From NCBI GenBank assembly GCA_023212695.1, contig JALCCG010000014.1, forward strand, positions 102,220-166,219: 64,000 nucleotides of DNA, in the 5' to 3' direction. The DNA is from Sporisorium sorghi. Lineage: Eukaryota > Basidiomycota > Ustilaginomycetes > Ustilaginales > Ustilaginaceae. The first letter of the stretch is position 1. Each line of letters begins with the position of its first letter. The notes under the pieces are model-generated. The model was not told the DNA's origin, made no database searches, and saw only the letters and a program-made list of their open reading frames with translations. Below, piece by piece: positions 18,699-25,857 of this stretch. Both the position numbers and the translations under genes were made by a program.

Positions 18699-19526
18699 TT
18701 AAGGCTCAAACCCCTGTTGGCTCACGAATAACTGCTCCTTCGGAAACGCCTGGCTAAACCGATCATAAACGATCTGATAGGCAGCTGGATCGTACCATTC
18801 CTCAAGTCCAAGCTCTTCATACAGCACCTGAACAGGCAGCCTCTTCGTCCGTTTCCCGCCGCTGCCGTCGCCCATGAAATAATCGTCGATGCACACGCGA
18901 TTCACAAGCGGCCGCAGGATCTCGGGAAAAGCCGCCGTGCTCGGAAGCACGGGAGCGATCGCTGCCTGAGTGGGAATCCCAGCGTCTCTCAGCAGCTCGA
19001 GTGTTTTCAGTCTGGCTTGGACCGGCGGTGCAGATGGCGTAAAATGCTTGCGGATGTCCTCACGGTCGGTCTCAACCGTCATGCTGACCCGCACCCGATC
19101 TCCTAACTGCTGCAGCAGATCGATATCCCGCCGGACTAAGGGACTTCGTGTCTGCACGAACAGGAAATCCGGCGGTTCGCCGACCATGACCTCAAGCAGC
19201 GCGCGAGTTACTTGTTCCTTGGCCTCGACCGGCTGATACGGATCGGTGCTGGAAGACATGAAGATCGTAACGGGCCCCTTCGTTTTGGCACGTTTCAGTT
19301 CTTTGCGCAGAATGGCTGCAGATTCCAGCTTAACGTCAACCCAGCTGCCCCACTCCCCATTGCGAAAGATCGATACCGGCATTTGCCGGACATAACAATA
19401 AGAACAAGCGAAGGTACAGCCTGTGTACGGATTTAAAGTATGGCTGTATCCGTTCAGAAATCCCGTTCCTTTATTCAACAGGGTCTTGGGGGTCTTATAG
19501 AGCACTTCACTTTTAATATCAAACAC
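18699..19526 (-). CDS. SPL-family radical SAM protein
   Basis: The protein carries a radical SAM iron-sulfur motif CTFACSYCY (CxxxCxxC) preceded by HTLNPYTG, and the family segments IFMSSSTDPYQPVEAKEQVTR and SMTVETDRE. These are typical of COG1533, the spore photoproduct lyase-like group. I chose a GTG start at 19526 (275 residues) because a TATAAT sequence lies at 19553-19548, inside any longer reading. ATG 19571 or GTG 19589 would give up to 296 residues. It follows the 2OG-Fe(II) oxygenase on the same strand. A DNA-lesion or nucleic-acid role is suggested only by context and family. Confidence 0.8.
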   Translation of the reverse strand: MFDIKSEVLYKTPKTLLNKGTGFLNGYSHTLNPYTGCTFACSYCYVRQMPVSIFRNGEWGSWVDVKLESAAILRKELKRAKTKGPVTIFMSSSTDPYQPVEAKEQVTRALLEVMVGEPPDFLFVQTRSPLVRRDIDLLQQLGDRVRVSMTVETDREDIRKHFTPSAPPVQARLKTLELLRDAGIPTQAAIAPVLPSTAAFPEILRPLVNRVCIDDYFMGDGSGGKRTKRLPVQVLYEELGLEEWYDPAAYQIVYDRFSQAFPKEQLFVSQQGFEP

Positions 19527-19606
19527 CCCGTTTCTGCACTTTCTTCTATTATACCATGTCTCTCCAGGCATCCTGGCCGGGGAATCCACCCCACTTATGA
19601 ACCCTT

Positions 19607-20320
19607 TTACTTCGCATCATGAAAAATAATCCCTAGGCTGTACCTGGTCCCTGCCGTGATGGTGCTAACGCCGTGCCGCAGCGTGGTTCGGTAATACCCT
19701 CGGGTCCCCTGAACGGGCCGATGGTTGGTCGGAAAAATCAGTCCCGCGCCCTGTTCCAAAGTAATGACATGCCCCCGGCTCTGTGCCCGCGGCCGCTGTT
19801 CAACCAACAGAAACTCTCCGCCCGCGTAATCGACTTCCTTCTCATTCAGAACGAATACCACTTGGAACGGGAAGAATTCATCTCCATACAAATCCTGATG
19901 CAGACAGTTGTAGCCGCCCTTCTCATATTTCAAAATGAGCGGTGTAGAGCGCCCCTGCCCTTGCGAATGGCACATCTCAAGGAACTCAGCCAAGGTCCCA
20001 GGGTACCGCTCCTCGCTTCCCAGCTGCGTCAGCCAGCGGTTGGCTGTCAGTGCAAGCTCAGGATAGAAGCCTTCCCGAAGCTGTTGCAGGAGTCCTGGCA
20101 GCGGGGCCTGATAGTACTTGTACTCCCCAACCCCAAAGCGGTGTCTAGCCATGTTAATGGTATTGCGAAACCGCTCCTCTTCCGAATAGGTATTTATGAT
20201 CCCTGTACATTCCTCAGGCAGCAGAAGCTTTGGAATGACAGCATATCCCTGCTCATCCAAAGCTCCCTGTATCCCTTCCCAATGTAGTCCCGAGATTCGC
20301 TCCTGCAACGATCTAGACAT
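19607..20320 (-). CDS. 2OG-Fe(II) oxygenase (COG3826-like) in the ada operon
   Basis: The 237-residue protein has the iron-binding triad: His141 and Asp143 in NCLHQDLYGDEFFPFQVV, and His216 in TTLRHGVSTITAG. Arg226 is the probable 2-oxoglutarate ligand. Its start overlaps the adaB stop by 8 bp and has GGAG six bases upstream. AlkB dioxygenases remove alkyl groups from DNA, but this is not a canonical AlkB by motif. Linkage to adaA and adaB makes oxidative dealkylation of DNA or nucleotides a reasonable hypothesis. Confidence 0.85.
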   Translation of the reverse strand: MSRSLQERISGLHWEGIQGALDEQGYAVIPKLLLPEECTGIINTYSEEERFRNTINMARHRFGVGEYKYYQAPLPGLLQQLREGFYPELALTANRWLTQLGSEERYPGTLAEFLEMCHSQGQGRSTPLILKYEKGGYNCLHQDLYGDEFFPFQVVFVLNEKEVDYAGGEFLLVEQRPRAQSRGHVITLEQGAGLIFPTNHRPVQGTRGYYRTTLRHGVSTITAGTRYSLGIIFHDAK

Positions 20321-20861
20321 ACTCCGCGGTCTCCTTCACCGGGACACGCCCGCGCTCCAGCTGAAGCAGCCAGGTCTTCATCTCAAGCCCTCCGCGATAA
20401 CCGGTCAAAGCCCCGCTCTTGCCAATTACCCGGTGGCACGGCACGGTTATAAGCAATGGATTGGCTCCGATAGCCGCTCCAACGGCACGAACCGCGGCCG
20501 GCTTTCCAATCTGGTTGGCGATGTCCGTATACGTATAGGTCTCGCCATACGGAATATGGCATAACGCATTCCATACAGCCGATTGAAAGGCGGTACCTTT
20601 GTAATCCATAGGCATTTCGAACCGGTCTCTGTTCCCCTGAAAATACTCGGCTAACTCTTCCGAATATACCTGCATTTTCGCATCATCCCGCACAAGCTCG
20701 CTGCCAGGGAACCTGGCGTTCACCCAGTCCGCTAACTCTTCTAACGGCTTATCCTGCGAGCCGACATAACATAATCCTTCCTTCGTAGCCGCCAGATATA
20801 CATTCCAGTTGTCATGAGTCAGTCGAGTCCAGTAGATTATTGTATTATCGGATTTCATCAT
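20313..20861 (-). CDS. adaB: Methylated-DNA--protein-cysteine methyltransferase (Ogt/AdaB type)
   Basis: This 182-residue suicide repair protein transfers O6-methyl from guanine to its own Cys142 in the ITVPCHRVIG motif. The family helix-turn-helix region QSAVWNALCHIPYGETYTY and the asparagine-hinge-like IGANPLLI are present. The ATG at 20861 has GGAGGTG upstream and overlaps the adaA end by 17 bp, as in the B. subtilis adaA-adaB operon. Its length is normal for the family. The symbol adaB is used because of this operon structure. Ogt would be the alternative. Confidence 0.92.
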   Translation of the reverse strand: MMKSDNTIIYWTRLTHDNWNVYLAATKEGLCYVGSQDKPLEELADWVNARFPGSELVRDDAKMQVYSEELAEYFQGNRDRFEMPMDYKGTAFQSAVWNALCHIPYGETYTYTDIANQIGKPAAVRAVGAAIGANPLLITVPCHRVIGKSGALTGYRGGLEMKTWLLQLERGRVPVKETAEYV

Positions 20862-21447
20862 GATCCTGCACCTCCATGCTTGTATTATTCAACACATATT
20901 GCCCGCGATAACGGAGTGGAGTAACCCCCGTCTTCTTCTTAAACAAGGTGATAAAATAAGCCGTATTGTCCAAACCCACCTTATGGCCGATATCCGAAAT
21001 GGTTAATCCGGAATCCCTAAGGAGCGCCTTGGCTTTGTCCATCCGGTAATCCTGGATGTACTCCATCGGGGTCAACCCTTTTACGCGTTTAAATATCCGG
21101 TGCAGATGATACGGGCTGCCGTGGCTCACATCGGCCAATACATCGAGTGTCAAATGCTCCGTGTAGTGGTTGTCGATATACTCCGTAACCAGCTCAATCC
21201 ATTCATGGTCCGGTAGACGTTCTCCTGTCGGCTTGCACCGTTTGCATGGTCGGAAGCGTTCGGCCCTCGCTTCATCCGGGGATTGGAACACGCGCACATT
21301 TTCAAATTTCGGGGGTCTGGATTTACAGGATGGCCGGCAGAAAATCCCGGTTGTCTGCACCGCGTAGAAAAACTTGCCGTCACTCTCTTTATCATTGCTG
21401 ATGATGGCCTTCCACTGTGCTTCGGTTGGCTGAATTCGGTTTGCCAC
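20845..21447 (-). CDS. adaA: AdaA: DNA methylphosphotriester methyltransferase and AraC-type activator
   Basis: The 200-residue protein has the Ada zinc domain, with four cysteines at residues 37, 41, 68 and 71 (TTGIFCRPSC...RFRPCKRC). Cys37 corresponds to the acceptor that takes methyl groups from phosphotriesters. An AraC-type double HTH follows (LTLDVLADVSHGSPYHLHRIF and DIGHKVGLDNTAYFITLFK). Methylated AdaA activates transcription of the adaptive response genes. It is divergent from alkA over 146 bp, so one activator can serve both sides. Confidence 0.95.
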   Translation of the reverse strand: MANRIQPTEAQWKAIISNDKESDGKFFYAVQTTGIFCRPSCKSRPPKFENVRVFQSPDEARAERFRPCKRCKPTGERLPDHEWIELVTEYIDNHYTEHLTLDVLADVSHGSPYHLHRIFKRVKGLTPMEYIQDYRMDKAKALLRDSGLTISDIGHKVGLDNTAYFITLFKKKTGVTPLRYRGQYVLNNTSMEVQDHDEIR

Positions 21448-21467
21448 GTTTCCTCACCTCCGCTAAC

Positions 21468-21501
21468 ATTATAACCACAGGATGGATTCGCTGTACGCTT
21501 T
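21468..21501 (-). promoter_or_regulatory. adaA promoter with candidate Ada box
   Basis: On the minus strand a TATAAT -10 lies at 21473-21468. AAAGCGTACAGCG lies at 21501-21489, overlapping the -35 position. The AAAGCG core resembles the E. coli Ada box (AAAGCGCA). The placement fits activation by methylated AdaA. Confidence 0.5.
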
Positions 21502-21593
21502 TTGGAATAGAAGAGCAAGATAACAAAATTATACGATCCGCATTTATGTTACAACTAGTATAGATAATCTTATGAACGAAAGGAACCGTGAAC

Positions 21594-22553
21594 ATGCGAG
21601 ATTCAAAACCTATGCCAAGCGGCACAATTCCTGCGCACAGCTGGGAGGATCTTCAGCATTCGTTAAAGCTGCACGTGCCGAAGGAATTCAGTTTTACCGA
21701 GAACCTCCATTATTTGCAGAGATCGCCAAACGAATGTCTCTATCATATTCAACATGACGCGATATACAGAGCGCTTTCTCTCGATTCAGGGATGGTGGTC
21801 ATTGAAGTTACCGAGCTGCCTCAAGAACAGGCTATCCTTGTAAGGTTTCTGGGCGATACTGCCCCAACGGAATGGAGCAAGCGTGCGGAAGTGGCGATTT
21901 ATGTCCGGGACTGGTTTGATCTGAACACCGATCTGGTTCCCTTCTACGCCATGGCACAGAAGGATCCTCTGCTCAGTCGAGCCCTTCATTCCTTCTATGG
22001 ACTGCGCAACATGGGCATCCCCGACCTGTTCGAGGCGCTGTGTTGGGGTATTCTGGGACAGCAGATTAACCTGACTTATGCTTATACGTTAAAAAGACGA
22101 TTCGTCGAGGCTTTTGGCCGCCGCGTGGAATGTGAAGGAGAGATTTACTGGTTATTCCCCCGGCCCGAGGACATTGCACATCTAAACGTGCAGGACCTGG
22201 AGGGGCTCCGTATGACCGTGAAAAAATGCGAGTACCTCATCGGGGTGGCACAGCTTATGGCGGAAGGAGAATTGACGAAAGAGCAGCTGCTTGATACGAA
22301 TAGCTTAAAAGAAGCGGAGAAACAACTTGTAAGCATTCGCGGCATCGGTCCGTGGACGGCCAACTATGTGCTGATGCGCTGCCTCCGGATGCCCGCGGCA
22401 TTCCCCATCGACGATGTCGGGCTGCACAATGCCATCAAACATCTGCTGGGTTCGGAGAAGAAACCGACAAAGAAGGAGATTCTGGCACTATCGGCAGCAT
22501 GGGCGAATTGGGAATCCTACGCTACCTTTTACCTCTGGAGGTTTCTCTATTAA
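21594..22553 (+). CDS. alkA: AlkA-type DNA-3-methyladenine glycosylase
   Basis: The protein of about 319 residues is a helix-hairpin-helix glycosylase with RGIGPWTANYVLMR followed by FPIDDVGL, whose second Asp (about residue 274) is the expected catalytic residue. It also has ALCWGILGQQINLTYA. It excises alkylated purines and starts base-excision repair. The ATG at 21594 is 8 bp after AAAGGAA, whereas a GTG at 21588 would be too close. It is divergent from adaA and presumably induced with it. A shared terminator follows. Confidence 0.93.
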   Translation: MRDSKPMPSGTIPAHSWEDLQHSLKLHVPKEFSFTENLHYLQRSPNECLYHIQHDAIYRALSLDSGMVVIEVTELPQEQAILVRFLGDTAPTEWSKRAEVAIYVRDWFDLNTDLVPFYAMAQKDPLLSRALHSFYGLRNMGIPDLFEALCWGILGQQINLTYAYTLKRRFVEAFGRRVECEGEIYWLFPRPEDIAHLNVQDLEGLRMTVKKCEYLIGVAQLMAEGELTKEQLLDTNSLKEAEKQLVSIRGIGPWTANYVLMRCLRMPAAFPIDDVGLHNAIKHLLGSEKKPTKKEILALSAAWANWESYATFYLWRFLY

Positions 22554-23350: not shown

Positions 23351-24397
23351 TTATTTGATCGTACCGATCCAGGATAAACTCTCCACCGATCGATGATCCA
23401 TACTGCCATTTAGGATAGCCTGAACGTCATCTAGTGTTTCTAGCAGCGATACCCGCTCGCCCTGTAATCTGGTATATGCTTCCGCAACGTAAAAAGGCTG
23501 CGTAAGATAGGCTTCCAGCCGTTCTCCCCGCTCATATACTTCCGTCTCGGATGCCGGAATGGCTTGCAGGCCTCGCACTTGAACCAGCGAACGCAGCTCA
23601 CGGTAACGCCGCAGCAGTTTCTGGGCACGCTGCTGAACCGACAGGTGATGCTGATCCAGATGGACTCCTTCCAATACGGAAGATGTGGAGTATAACGGAT
23701 TTACGGCCGGAAACATATGTCTGGCAGCCAGGTCCGCATCAAAATACCACAGCGTCTCCAGGGGACCGTAAGGCAAATCCTCATCAACAGCTGCACCTTT
23801 TAGATCCACAAGAAAAGTCGTGACATTCTCAATGCCTTCTTGTTGAAAACGTTCCTGAAGATCATAGATCTTCCCGGTTAAGACGTGCTCCCGGTCTGCT
23901 GCAAATACAATCTCCTTCTCCCTACTTGTATTCGCCACGATTGAATAAGTTTCTTCTATAGAGTTGGCCACCCGCTGTACATCATTAAGCATGTCCTGCA
24001 GCTCCGGATATTCACCTTCCGGCTTCAGCAGAATCGTCACATAACCTCCCGCCTTGAAGTGGTGGAACAATTCCCCCAGCAGCACAAGCTGACCCATTCC
24101 GGGACGGGCGACTAAACCGACGGTGCCGCCTTTTGCCAGCGGAGCAAATAAATCGAGCGGCTTGATGCCTGTTTCGATCATATCCACCCTTTCCCCGCGC
24201 AGGATCAGTTCATCTAAACTGCATTTCGCCAGGGATGCCAGTGCGGCAATGGTGCGGACTTCCGCCCGTCCCACGGGGATTTTTCCCGTGCACAGATTGG
24301 AGACCGTAGCAGGCCGCAGTCCAACGGATTTGGCTGCGCTAGTCAGGTTCGGAACCCTTTGTCGTAACAGTGATACATTGAGCTTCAGATTATCCAT
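23351..24397 (-). CDS. HTH domain fused to a degenerate F1-ATPase beta-subunit-like body
   Basis: The 348-residue protein starts with an XRE-like HTH (NLTSAAKSVGLRPATVSNLC, residues 17-36, LDELIL near 62). From residue 74 it follows the F1 beta subunit: IETGIKPLDLFAPLAKGG, a P-loop position reading ARPGMGQL (97-104) instead of GGAGVGKT, a Walker-B-like TTFLVD, then FPAVNPLYSTSS (229-240), LLRRYRELRSLVQVRG, YLTQPFYVAEAY and ETLDDVQAILNG. The beta-barrel N-terminus and about 60 residues after Walker B are missing. The loss of the P-loop Lys and Thr argues against ATP hydrolysis. It stands alone, away from any atp operon. A DNA-binding regulator built on a dead ATPase fold is the likely reading. 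Confidence 0.85.
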   Translation of the reverse strand: MDNLKLNVSLLRQRVPNLTSAAKSVGLRPATVSNLCTGKIPVGRAEVRTIAALASLAKCSLDELILRGERVDMIETGIKPLDLFAPLAKGGTVGLVARPGMGQLVLLGELFHHFKAGGYVTILLKPEGEYPELQDMLNDVQRVANSIEETYSIVANTSREKEIVFAADREHVLTGKIYDLQERFQQEGIENVTTFLVDLKGAAVDEDLPYGPLETLWYFDADLAARHMFPAVNPLYSTSSVLEGVHLDQHHLSVQQRAQKLLRRYRELRSLVQVRGLQAIPASETEVYERGERLEAYLTQPFYVAEAYTRLQGERVSLLETLDDVQAILNGSMDHRSVESLSWIGTIK

Positions 24398-24412: not shown

Positions 24413-24694
24413 TTAATAGTGGATTGATTTTGTGCTTTTTTCCATAAAAGAATCTGCTGTGCAGACAAACAACCCCTCATCCGGTTCAAAAATGTTGTGA
24501 TCAAACTGCTCGAATTCCGCGATTTTGGCCTGAGGCAGTGATTGTTTGTATTGTTTCCACTGCTTCTAATGAAACCTAGGACTTGGTTTTATGCCACGGA
24601 TCATAAGGACTGGGCAAGACAACAGCGTCAGATCGTTCCACAGTTCTACTTTCGCTGTTACAGAGCATGTAAGGCAGAGGGCTTCATCCATCAT
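24413..24694 (-). pseudogene. Alpha/beta-hydrolase C-terminal remnant with an in-frame stop
   Basis: A single minus-strand frame of 94 codons encodes ELWNDLTLLSCPVLMIRG, the strand-and-turn before the catalytic acid in alpha/beta hydrolases. A TAG follows, then in the same frame YKQSLPQAKIAEFEQFDHNI (the catalytic-His region, HN) and FVCTADSFMEK. The N-terminal two thirds, with the nucleophile, are absent. This accounts for the 24398-24705 interval, where nothing else is seen. Confidence 0.6.
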
Positions 24695-24705: not shown

Positions 24706-25662
24706 TTACCTTAATGCGCCAAAAGGCAAAAATGCGTGCACGCCCTTGGCCGTATTCACGATCTGAGTTACGCGCAGATCTACTGCCAATGTGGCGTAAG
24801 CGTACGCCTCTGTTCGCGTGATGGAGTAGAGTTCCGTCATGAGGTCAAGCATCCCGCTTAGAGCCATCCACATCGCTTCGTCCAGATCCTCATGGAACCC
24901 CATCGTTAGCCAACCGGTGCTCGTCTTCGCTCTTGGCATCGTAATCGGCATATCGTCCCGGATATGAAAGGTCAGACTCACCTTCTCCATGGGACATTCC
25001 AGGGCAGGCCCGCTAACTTCGCCGTCCCCCTGCACGGCGTGACCATCCCCTGTAGAGAACAATCCGCCATCGACCGGAATCGGCAAATACAGGGTGGAAC
25101 CGGCGGTTAACTCTTTGCAATCCAGGTTACCTCCATAGGGCCGCGGCATAAAAGTCGTATGCTGGCCTTCTTCCCCGGGCGGCTTTCCCATTATACCCAT
25201 AAAAGGTTTCAGACCCACGCTGTACTTGAAGGTTCCGAATTGACTCCGGCCTATCAAAGTCTTGGTGTCCAATTCAAAATCCAGCATGATTTCTTGAACA
25301 TCACGCATCCCCAGCTTCTCGTTCCAATAACTTGGAAAACCTCCGGCGGAGGTCCAACCCCATGATCCGGGAATAATCTCGTTGATCTGGATCTCCAATG
25401 TGTCACCAGCTTTTGCACCTTCGATATGTACCGGCCCCACCAATGCATGCCCAAACTGTTTCTCCTGCCGCCCCGGTTTACGCTCAGTGAACTTCGTTCT
25501 TGGCGCACCTGGCGCAGAGCGCTTCGCAAGCCCCCAGGAAGCATCCAACGTTTGATACACGACAGTGTCTCCCGACTGGATATACAGAGCCGGTTTCAGC
25601 TCTTTGCTGAAAAATCCATGCAGCGTGTGAATATCCGGTTTTAGCCTGTGAATGTTCGACAT
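24706..25662 (-). CDS. Acetamidase/formamidase family protein
   Basis: The 318-residue protein belongs to the FmdA/AmdA family. Recognisable segments are GPVHIEGAKAGDTLEIQINE, LKPFMGIMGKPP, PRPYGGNLDCKEL and the conserved DGHAVQGDGEVSG. It would hydrolyse formamide or short amides to ammonia and the acid in the cytoplasm. It is monocistronic, with a remnant hydrolase just downstream and a 540-bp gene-poor stretch upstream. Length is normal for the family's bacterial branch. Confidence 0.9.
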   Translation of the reverse strand: MSNIHRLKPDIHTLHGFFSKELKPALYIQSGDTVVYQTLDASWGLAKRSAPGAPRTKFTERKPGRQEKQFGHALVGPVHIEGAKAGDTLEIQINEIIPGSWGWTSAGGFPSYWNEKLGMRDVQEIMLDFELDTKTLIGRSQFGTFKYSVGLKPFMGIMGKPPGEEGQHTTFMPRPYGGNLDCKELTAGSTLYLPIPVDGGLFSTGDGHAVQGDGEVSGPALECPMEKVSLTFHIRDDMPITMPRAKTSTGWLTMGFHEDLDEAMWMALSGMLDLMTELYSITRTEAYAYATLAVDLRVTQIVNTAKGVHAFLPFGALR

Positions 25663-25857
25663 CGGTTCTTCTCCCCCTCACACCCATAATCAGAATAGCG
25701 CCGCACCTAGGCAGGCTACATACCCTGTTACGTTATAAAGTATTTTATATTACTCTGAAAGTCAATACACATTTACTCTACAAAGTAATTATAATTACGT
25801 GTTAAGATGTGCGTTTAGTTGATGCTAGGAATCGACATTCAAGCTGAACAACATAAA

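Follow-up and report, generated by a model that had tools for sequence, protein, structure and literature searches.

A putative autoregulated HTH regulator of Bacillales with a sensor-like body derived from the F1-ATPase beta subunit

What a protein may do that carries a DNA-binding domain at one end and the body of a rotary-motor subunit over the rest of its length is the question raised by one gene of the window, as the whole 64,000-nucleotide stretch of DNA analysed is called here. The gene and the parts of its product are the following:

23351..24397, minus strand: gene P0001, HTH/pseudo-F1-beta protein, 348 aa
24203..24349, minus strand: Cro/C1-type HTH, residues 17-65
23354..24193, minus strand: pseudo-F1-beta body, made of the nucleotide-binding and C-terminal domains, with the F1 N-terminal beta-barrel missing, residues 69-348
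24083..24109, minus strand: degenerate P-loop ARPGMGQLV (F1 counterpart GGAGVGKTV), residues 97-105

The Cro/C1-type HTH occupies the position of the beta-barrel crown of F1-beta, the rest being retained as a pseudo-ATPase. In the structure model, the five helices expected of a Cro/C1 domain are found at residues 8-14, 18-25, 29-37, 47-56 and 61-64, and helices spanning residues 8-64 thus stand where the barrel would be. The barrel family PF02874, carried by the F1-beta comparison proteins, is missing from the Pfam matches of the window protein. HTH_26 (PF13443) is found in 11 of 11 rows, two of them added XRE proteins, and the window protein alone scores below its gathering threshold. For the nucleotide-binding and C-terminal domains, the F1-beta fold was recovered both in the model and in a fold search whose rows spanned residues 69-348 only, so that the HTH lies outside the latter test. 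The first-pass annotation had recommended a structure prediction, and the F1-beta core indeed appears in the good model, which was built from an alignment including 32 F1-beta rows; a model built without F1-beta sequences was of too low quality for use. The protein is nevertheless no AtpD, as it scores 117.1 bits with the atpD profile (TIGR01039) against a curated cut-off of 462.85.

A search of 5.8 billion proteins, in which 7997 candidates were scored, returned 809 clusters at E-values up to 0.001, among which some true ATP-synthase beta subunits may be present; identity is at least 66% for all 120 clusters among the matches listed. In genomes taken one per species, 282 stretches matched the search pattern, 256 of them with a relative, and 80 loci were retained. 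Nearly all come from named Bacillales, three being metagenome-assembled genomes named only as Bacillota or Bacillaceae. Full-length members occur in 12 of 299 evenly drawn Bacilli genomes. Among 30 members, full-length identity ranges from 66 to 89%, and conservation is highest in the HTH (mean share of the majority residue 0.93 for residues 17-65 vs 0.77 for 69-348). The earlier remark that no atp genes lie nearby extends to the family, neither atpA nor atpD being found in the 80 loci. No conserved neighbour was found either, the biggest shared ORF clusters covering 12 of the 80 loci. In six of these loci, all from Sporosarcina (L040, L045, L049, L054, L057 and L058), a nucleotidyltransferase-like gene lies directly downstream of the regulator; the L040 protein, the one of the six that was scanned, matches Pfam Aminoglyc_resit.

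Carriage by mobile elements was also considered. Phage or plasmid cargo was rejected. Nineteen phage records match, all below 60% identity, apparently through F1-beta genes that are probably host sequence. Seven records named as Listeria or Enterococcus phage (H1-H7) carry F1-beta-like proteins of about 25% identity that are likewise likely bacterial. Two stretches of viral contigs matched the pattern and neither holds a relative, and the protein has no match in the defence library. A single plasmid record was retrieved at E-values up to 1e-20, an 897-kb Paenibacillus replicon whose protein is 53.6% identical and whose gene also has an operator-like pair upstream.

Such operator-like sites recur in the family. 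In the upstream regions (up to 300 bp) of the 80 loci and the window, 102 palindromes of the form TTAC-N8-GTAA occur, against 0-3 for each of the other spacers compared from 4 to 15. At least one is present in 65 of the 81 regions; the window's own 300-bp region has none, and in the window as in several Paenibacillus loci the sites are found at a greater distance, an additional 1.1-2.0 kb upstream, where they precede an acetamidase-like gene. When seven of the eight half-site bases and distances of 21-24 or 44-47 bp were required, 70 of 80 loci had two or more helically spaced sites in the 2.1 kb upstream, vs 0 of 80 in the downstream control, the remaining 10 loci failing the test. Spacings peak at 22, 23 and 45 bp, close to two and four helical turns. 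In several family loci, visual inspection places the second and third sites over a -35 (TTGACA or TTGC) and a -10 (TACTAT). The presence of the array tracks that of the gene: among the Bacilli genomes, 7 of the 12 that have a full-length member show the pattern (5 of 12 lack it) vs 1 of the 287 that have none. That sole array (L260, genome G104) consists of two identical TTACTTTGTAAAGTAA copies. In the Lederbergia loci L016 (5570-6010) and L017, the array lies between a divergent gene, TetR-like by eye, and the regulator side, a short ORF of some 60 codons separating array and regulator in L016. Elsewhere, at L131 (G290), a remnant of the first 28 codons of the gene persists with an operator-like site nearby.

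In the window, the sites stand at the head of what is probably an operon:

25773..25788, minus strand: operator-like palindrome 1, TTACTTTGTAGAGTAA
25750..25765, minus strand: operator-like site 2, TTGACTTTCAGAGTAA, including a presumed -35 TTGACT (25760-25765)
25728..25743, minus strand: operator-like site 3, ATACTTTATAACGTAA, overlapping a presumed weak -10 (25737-25742)
24706..25662, minus strand: acetamidase/formamidase-like gene (FmdA_AmdA, 318 aa), probably in the same operon and a putative target
24437..24658, minus strand: remnant of a decayed alpha/beta hydrolase gene, aligned over 74 residues with one stop

The three sites are thus followed by the acetamidase-like ORF, the hydrolase remnant and the regulator gene. 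At the position of the remnant, four other loci (L012, L013, L015 and L018) have an alpha/beta hydrolase frame that is open over 242-246 codons. The weak -10 was not called by a promoter scan of the window. A pattern combining the -35 with the operator array has a single match in the whole 23 Mb assembly, namely sites 2 and 3 (control, 0). This assembly holds eukaryote-like genes (one V-ATPase subunit B-like by eye) as well as contigs resembling Paenibacillus glucanolyticus/vortex; the record looks mixed or contaminated, since the window's contig belongs to its bacterial part, and the gene is that of a soil bacterium. Further along the window, 18699-22553 encodes radical-SAM repair-like, 2OG oxygenase-like, Ada/Ogt methyltransferase-pair-like and AlkA-like glycosylase ORFs (names given by eye), perhaps a DNA-alkylation repair cluster.

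TTAC-N8-GTAA sites also precede genes other than the regulator, encoding acetamidase-like amidases, M3 oligoendopeptidases and an ABC exporter. The acetamidase-like subfamily (at least 64% identity) is present in 10 of 38 member-bearing genomes, a count that includes one broken gene (G019) and leaves out a 30-residue fragment in G044. A site lies upstream of the gene or its operon in nine of the ten, G131 being the one without. All four copies unlinked to the regulator (G010, G038, G039 and G040) have a site, although they lie on another contig or megabases away (G038), that of G010 being at least far outside the 6-kb flanks. In G040, the site is placed 291 bp upstream, between the acetamidase-like gene and a divergent hydrolase gene. 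No site accompanies the acetamidases of 47-52% identity (L144-L146); the loci inspected, L135-L147, are 13 of the 30 returned, matches of 37% identity or less being excluded. The alpha/beta hydrolase occurs in 10 of 39 genomes (E-values up to 1e-25).

Genome-wide scans added few places. Over 44 genomes, the array pattern fell 15 times at the regulator's own promoter and twice elsewhere (control, 0), once before an M3 peptidase gene and once at L108 (G025). The latter was set aside: its palindrome is a different one, present as three TTACTGTTTACGGTAA copies before a permease-like transport gene, and probably belongs to a different regulator. Over 45 genomes, all places were the regulator's own except two, both before M3 peptidase genes (G023, where the gene looks broken, and G025), against 1 in 45 for the control. 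A third M3 gene (L234) also has a site upstream. Overall, 4 of 30 M3 peptidase loci show a spacer-8 site, just upstream of the gene in two of them and away from the gene start in L233 and L243; L230 and L231 have no upstream site. A looser pattern gave two further places in 30 genomes (control, 2 of 30). One of them, in G042, precedes an ABC exporter gene and has a third site 45 bp off; the other (L268, G036) was set aside as probably due to chance. The best NCBIfam matches of the exporter, all under cut-off, are type I secretion, MsbA and SmdB-like exporters. At L133 (1444-1731, genome G325), a second, truncated copy of the regulator gene, reduced to the HTH and the start of the body, has its own operator-like site and is followed by a homologous ABC exporter gene, the exporter proteins of L267 and L133 being 37.8% identical.

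Single sites behave otherwise. In five genomes, the single-site pattern showed no enrichment (12 places vs 12 in the control, six of the 12 at the gene itself), and the flanks beyond the first 200 bp upstream, 1.0 Mb in all, hold 41 sites with spacer 8 and 39 with spacer 14. As these counts match the controls, the regulon is probably small and a single site proves little; a large regulon of single sites was therefore rejected.

Taken from comparisons of sequence, these observations make a one-component regulator of transcription the probable role of the protein. It most likely acts as a repressor, with the pseudo-F1-beta body as its sensor, and controls its own gene. The earlier proposal of a transcription factor derived from an ATP-synthase subunit is very likely right, given the conserved operator-like array and the putative target genes. 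Comparison of many genomes suggests a self-controlling switch acting on a pump and a small number of enzymes. An objection is that in most Bacillaceae searched the array stands at the regulator alone, where its benefit is hard to see. We infer the binding, the sign of regulation, the ligand and the role of the enzymes as follows. HTH dimers would bind each palindrome, neighbouring dimers cooperatively and on a single face of the DNA, and the bound protein would cover the -35 and -10 and block transcription, repression being suggested solely by the overlap with these elements as judged by eye. A small molecule lodged in the retained adenine-side pocket might then alter the dimer so that the operator is released, though the residues on that side may be retained for folding alone; the same molecule or one related to it would be broken down or exported by the induced hydrolases and exporter, with autoregulation resetting the switch.

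The nature of the signal is best approached through the residues of this pocket, compared in bovine numbering between 69 family members and 32 F1-beta sequences, with nucleotide and aurovertin contacts as listed in excerpts of PMC9615146. The first-pass annotation had described the F1-beta fold as catalytically dead and advised inspection of the P-loop in homologues, where that description is borne out. Lys162 is replaced by Gln in 68 of 69 members and Thr163 by Leu in 67 of 69, the Tyr311 equivalent is Gly in all 69, and the GER catalytic motif is absent, the alignment column of its Glu holding D, N or E. The position of Gly157, which we take to be a nucleotide contact like A421, is Arg in 69 of 69. 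In the stretch between residues 130 and 190, where the alignment is unreliable, the invariant Asp168 could be the Walker B residue, judging from strand order in the model. Among the adenine-side residues, P346, Q416 and F418 are retained in all 69 and A421 in 68; position 345 is aromatic in 69 and position 424 in 68, and position 425 is Thr or Ser in 69. Contacts on the adenine side are thus retained and those on the phosphate side lost, and the nucleotide sensing suggested in the first-pass annotation is plausible.

This pattern gives some credit to an energy or purine sensor, in which the adenine cradle would bind AMP, ADP, NAD, SAM or a similar molecule and couple it to the expression of scavenging enzymes, a possible if tentative alternative. 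All adenine-side contacts have been kept though just 67 of 207 F1-invariant columns are, "invariant" being a generous label given how closely related the 32 F1-beta are. Arg98, a new invariant residue of the P-loop, could serve to hold a phosphate. The loss of the P-loop Lys and Thr and of the Tyr311 equivalent counts against such a sensor, as does the apparent loss of R189 and R260, although the alignment is poor between residues 130 and 190.

Less probable, indeed rather unlikely, is a decoy role, whereby a whole Bacillales family of repressors would use its copy of the ATP-synthase beta subunit to bind natural products that attack F1-ATPase, freeing operators before genes for clearing hydrolases, peptidases and an exporter. 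Removal of a compound is suggested by the mix of functions that the putative targets encode (amidase, alpha/beta hydrolase, M3 peptidase and ABC exporter, the last with two associations, L267 and L133), and an F1-binding compound by the sensor's descent from F1-beta. The same enzymes could however serve nutrition, and the retained pocket suits a purine or energy signal at least as well. F1-binding natural products do exist, such as aurovertin (excerpts of PMC9615146) and ammocidin (excerpts of PMC9244403). Aurovertin itself was rejected as the probable ligand, because its three strongest residues, as named in the excerpts of PMC9615146, are not retained (Ala replaces R412 in 68 of 69 and Glu replaces Q411 in 69, and Y458 is mostly Asn or Thr); P350, L378 and Y381 of its site are kept.

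Action on F1 at the protein level, as an assembly factor or as an inhibitor that competes for alpha subunits, with an HTH that serves only to limit the protein's own amount, would accord with the well conserved C-terminal domain and with an array confined to its own gene in most genomes searched. It is very improbable: the beta-barrel crown is missing, atpA and atpD are absent from the 80 loci, and the site-bearing genes are unrelated to ATP synthase. The suggestion that the protein senses the F1 complex or competes within it is accordingly not supported. Regulation of the atp operon is not supported either, since a test for spacer-8 palindromes only found three in 109,197 bp around atpB in 30 genomes, no more than with other spacers (1-8). 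Finally, a decaying atpD fragment fused to an HTH by chance would explain the lost catalytic residues and can practically be dismissed, as can a chance resemblance to F1-beta, in view of the F1-beta fold, the 66-89% full-length identity among 30 members, the invariant new residues and the conserved operator array.

Among known systems, the regulator would be classed with the XRE (Cro/C1-type) one-component regulators, which it resembles in its HTH (PF13443) and in palindromic operator-like sites at two-turn spacing at its own promoter, the F1-beta-derived sensor being the probable new element. Neither an XRE regulator with such a sensor nor a paper on the family or its operator was found in the literature searched, which did not include preprints and most subscription journals, and we know of no F1-beta-derived sensor in any other regulator. 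AtpD (TIGR01039; PF00006 and PF22919) differs in having the beta-barrel, the Lys/Thr pair and GER and in lacking an HTH. The G1-ATPase (MMOB1670) and MSC_0618 F1-like subunits of Mycoplasma are likewise F1-beta relatives outside ATP synthase, to our knowledge without an HTH; unlike the family protein, G1-ATPase is part of a gliding machinery according to the title of PDB 9io5. If the proposed regulator is real, a gene switch has taken a rotary-motor subunit as its sensor, a new use of an ancient motor part, and the system offers a readable operator and testable target genes. Were the decoy role true, it would point to unknown F1-directed antibiotics and to enzymes undoing them. BlaR1, with its penicillin-binding sensor, and MecR1 are beta-lactam sensors derived from the drug target, and induce a hydrolase. 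This logic might hypothetically be shared, although these sensors are membrane proteins with a protease relay, whereas the family protein is an HTH fusion. Among the matches listed, clusters are named "ATP synthase subunit B", "ATP synthase beta subunit C-terminal domain-containing protein", "F-type H+-transporting ATPase subunit beta" or hypothetical; many of these proteins, where they bear the first or third of these names, are thus probably not ATP-synthase parts.
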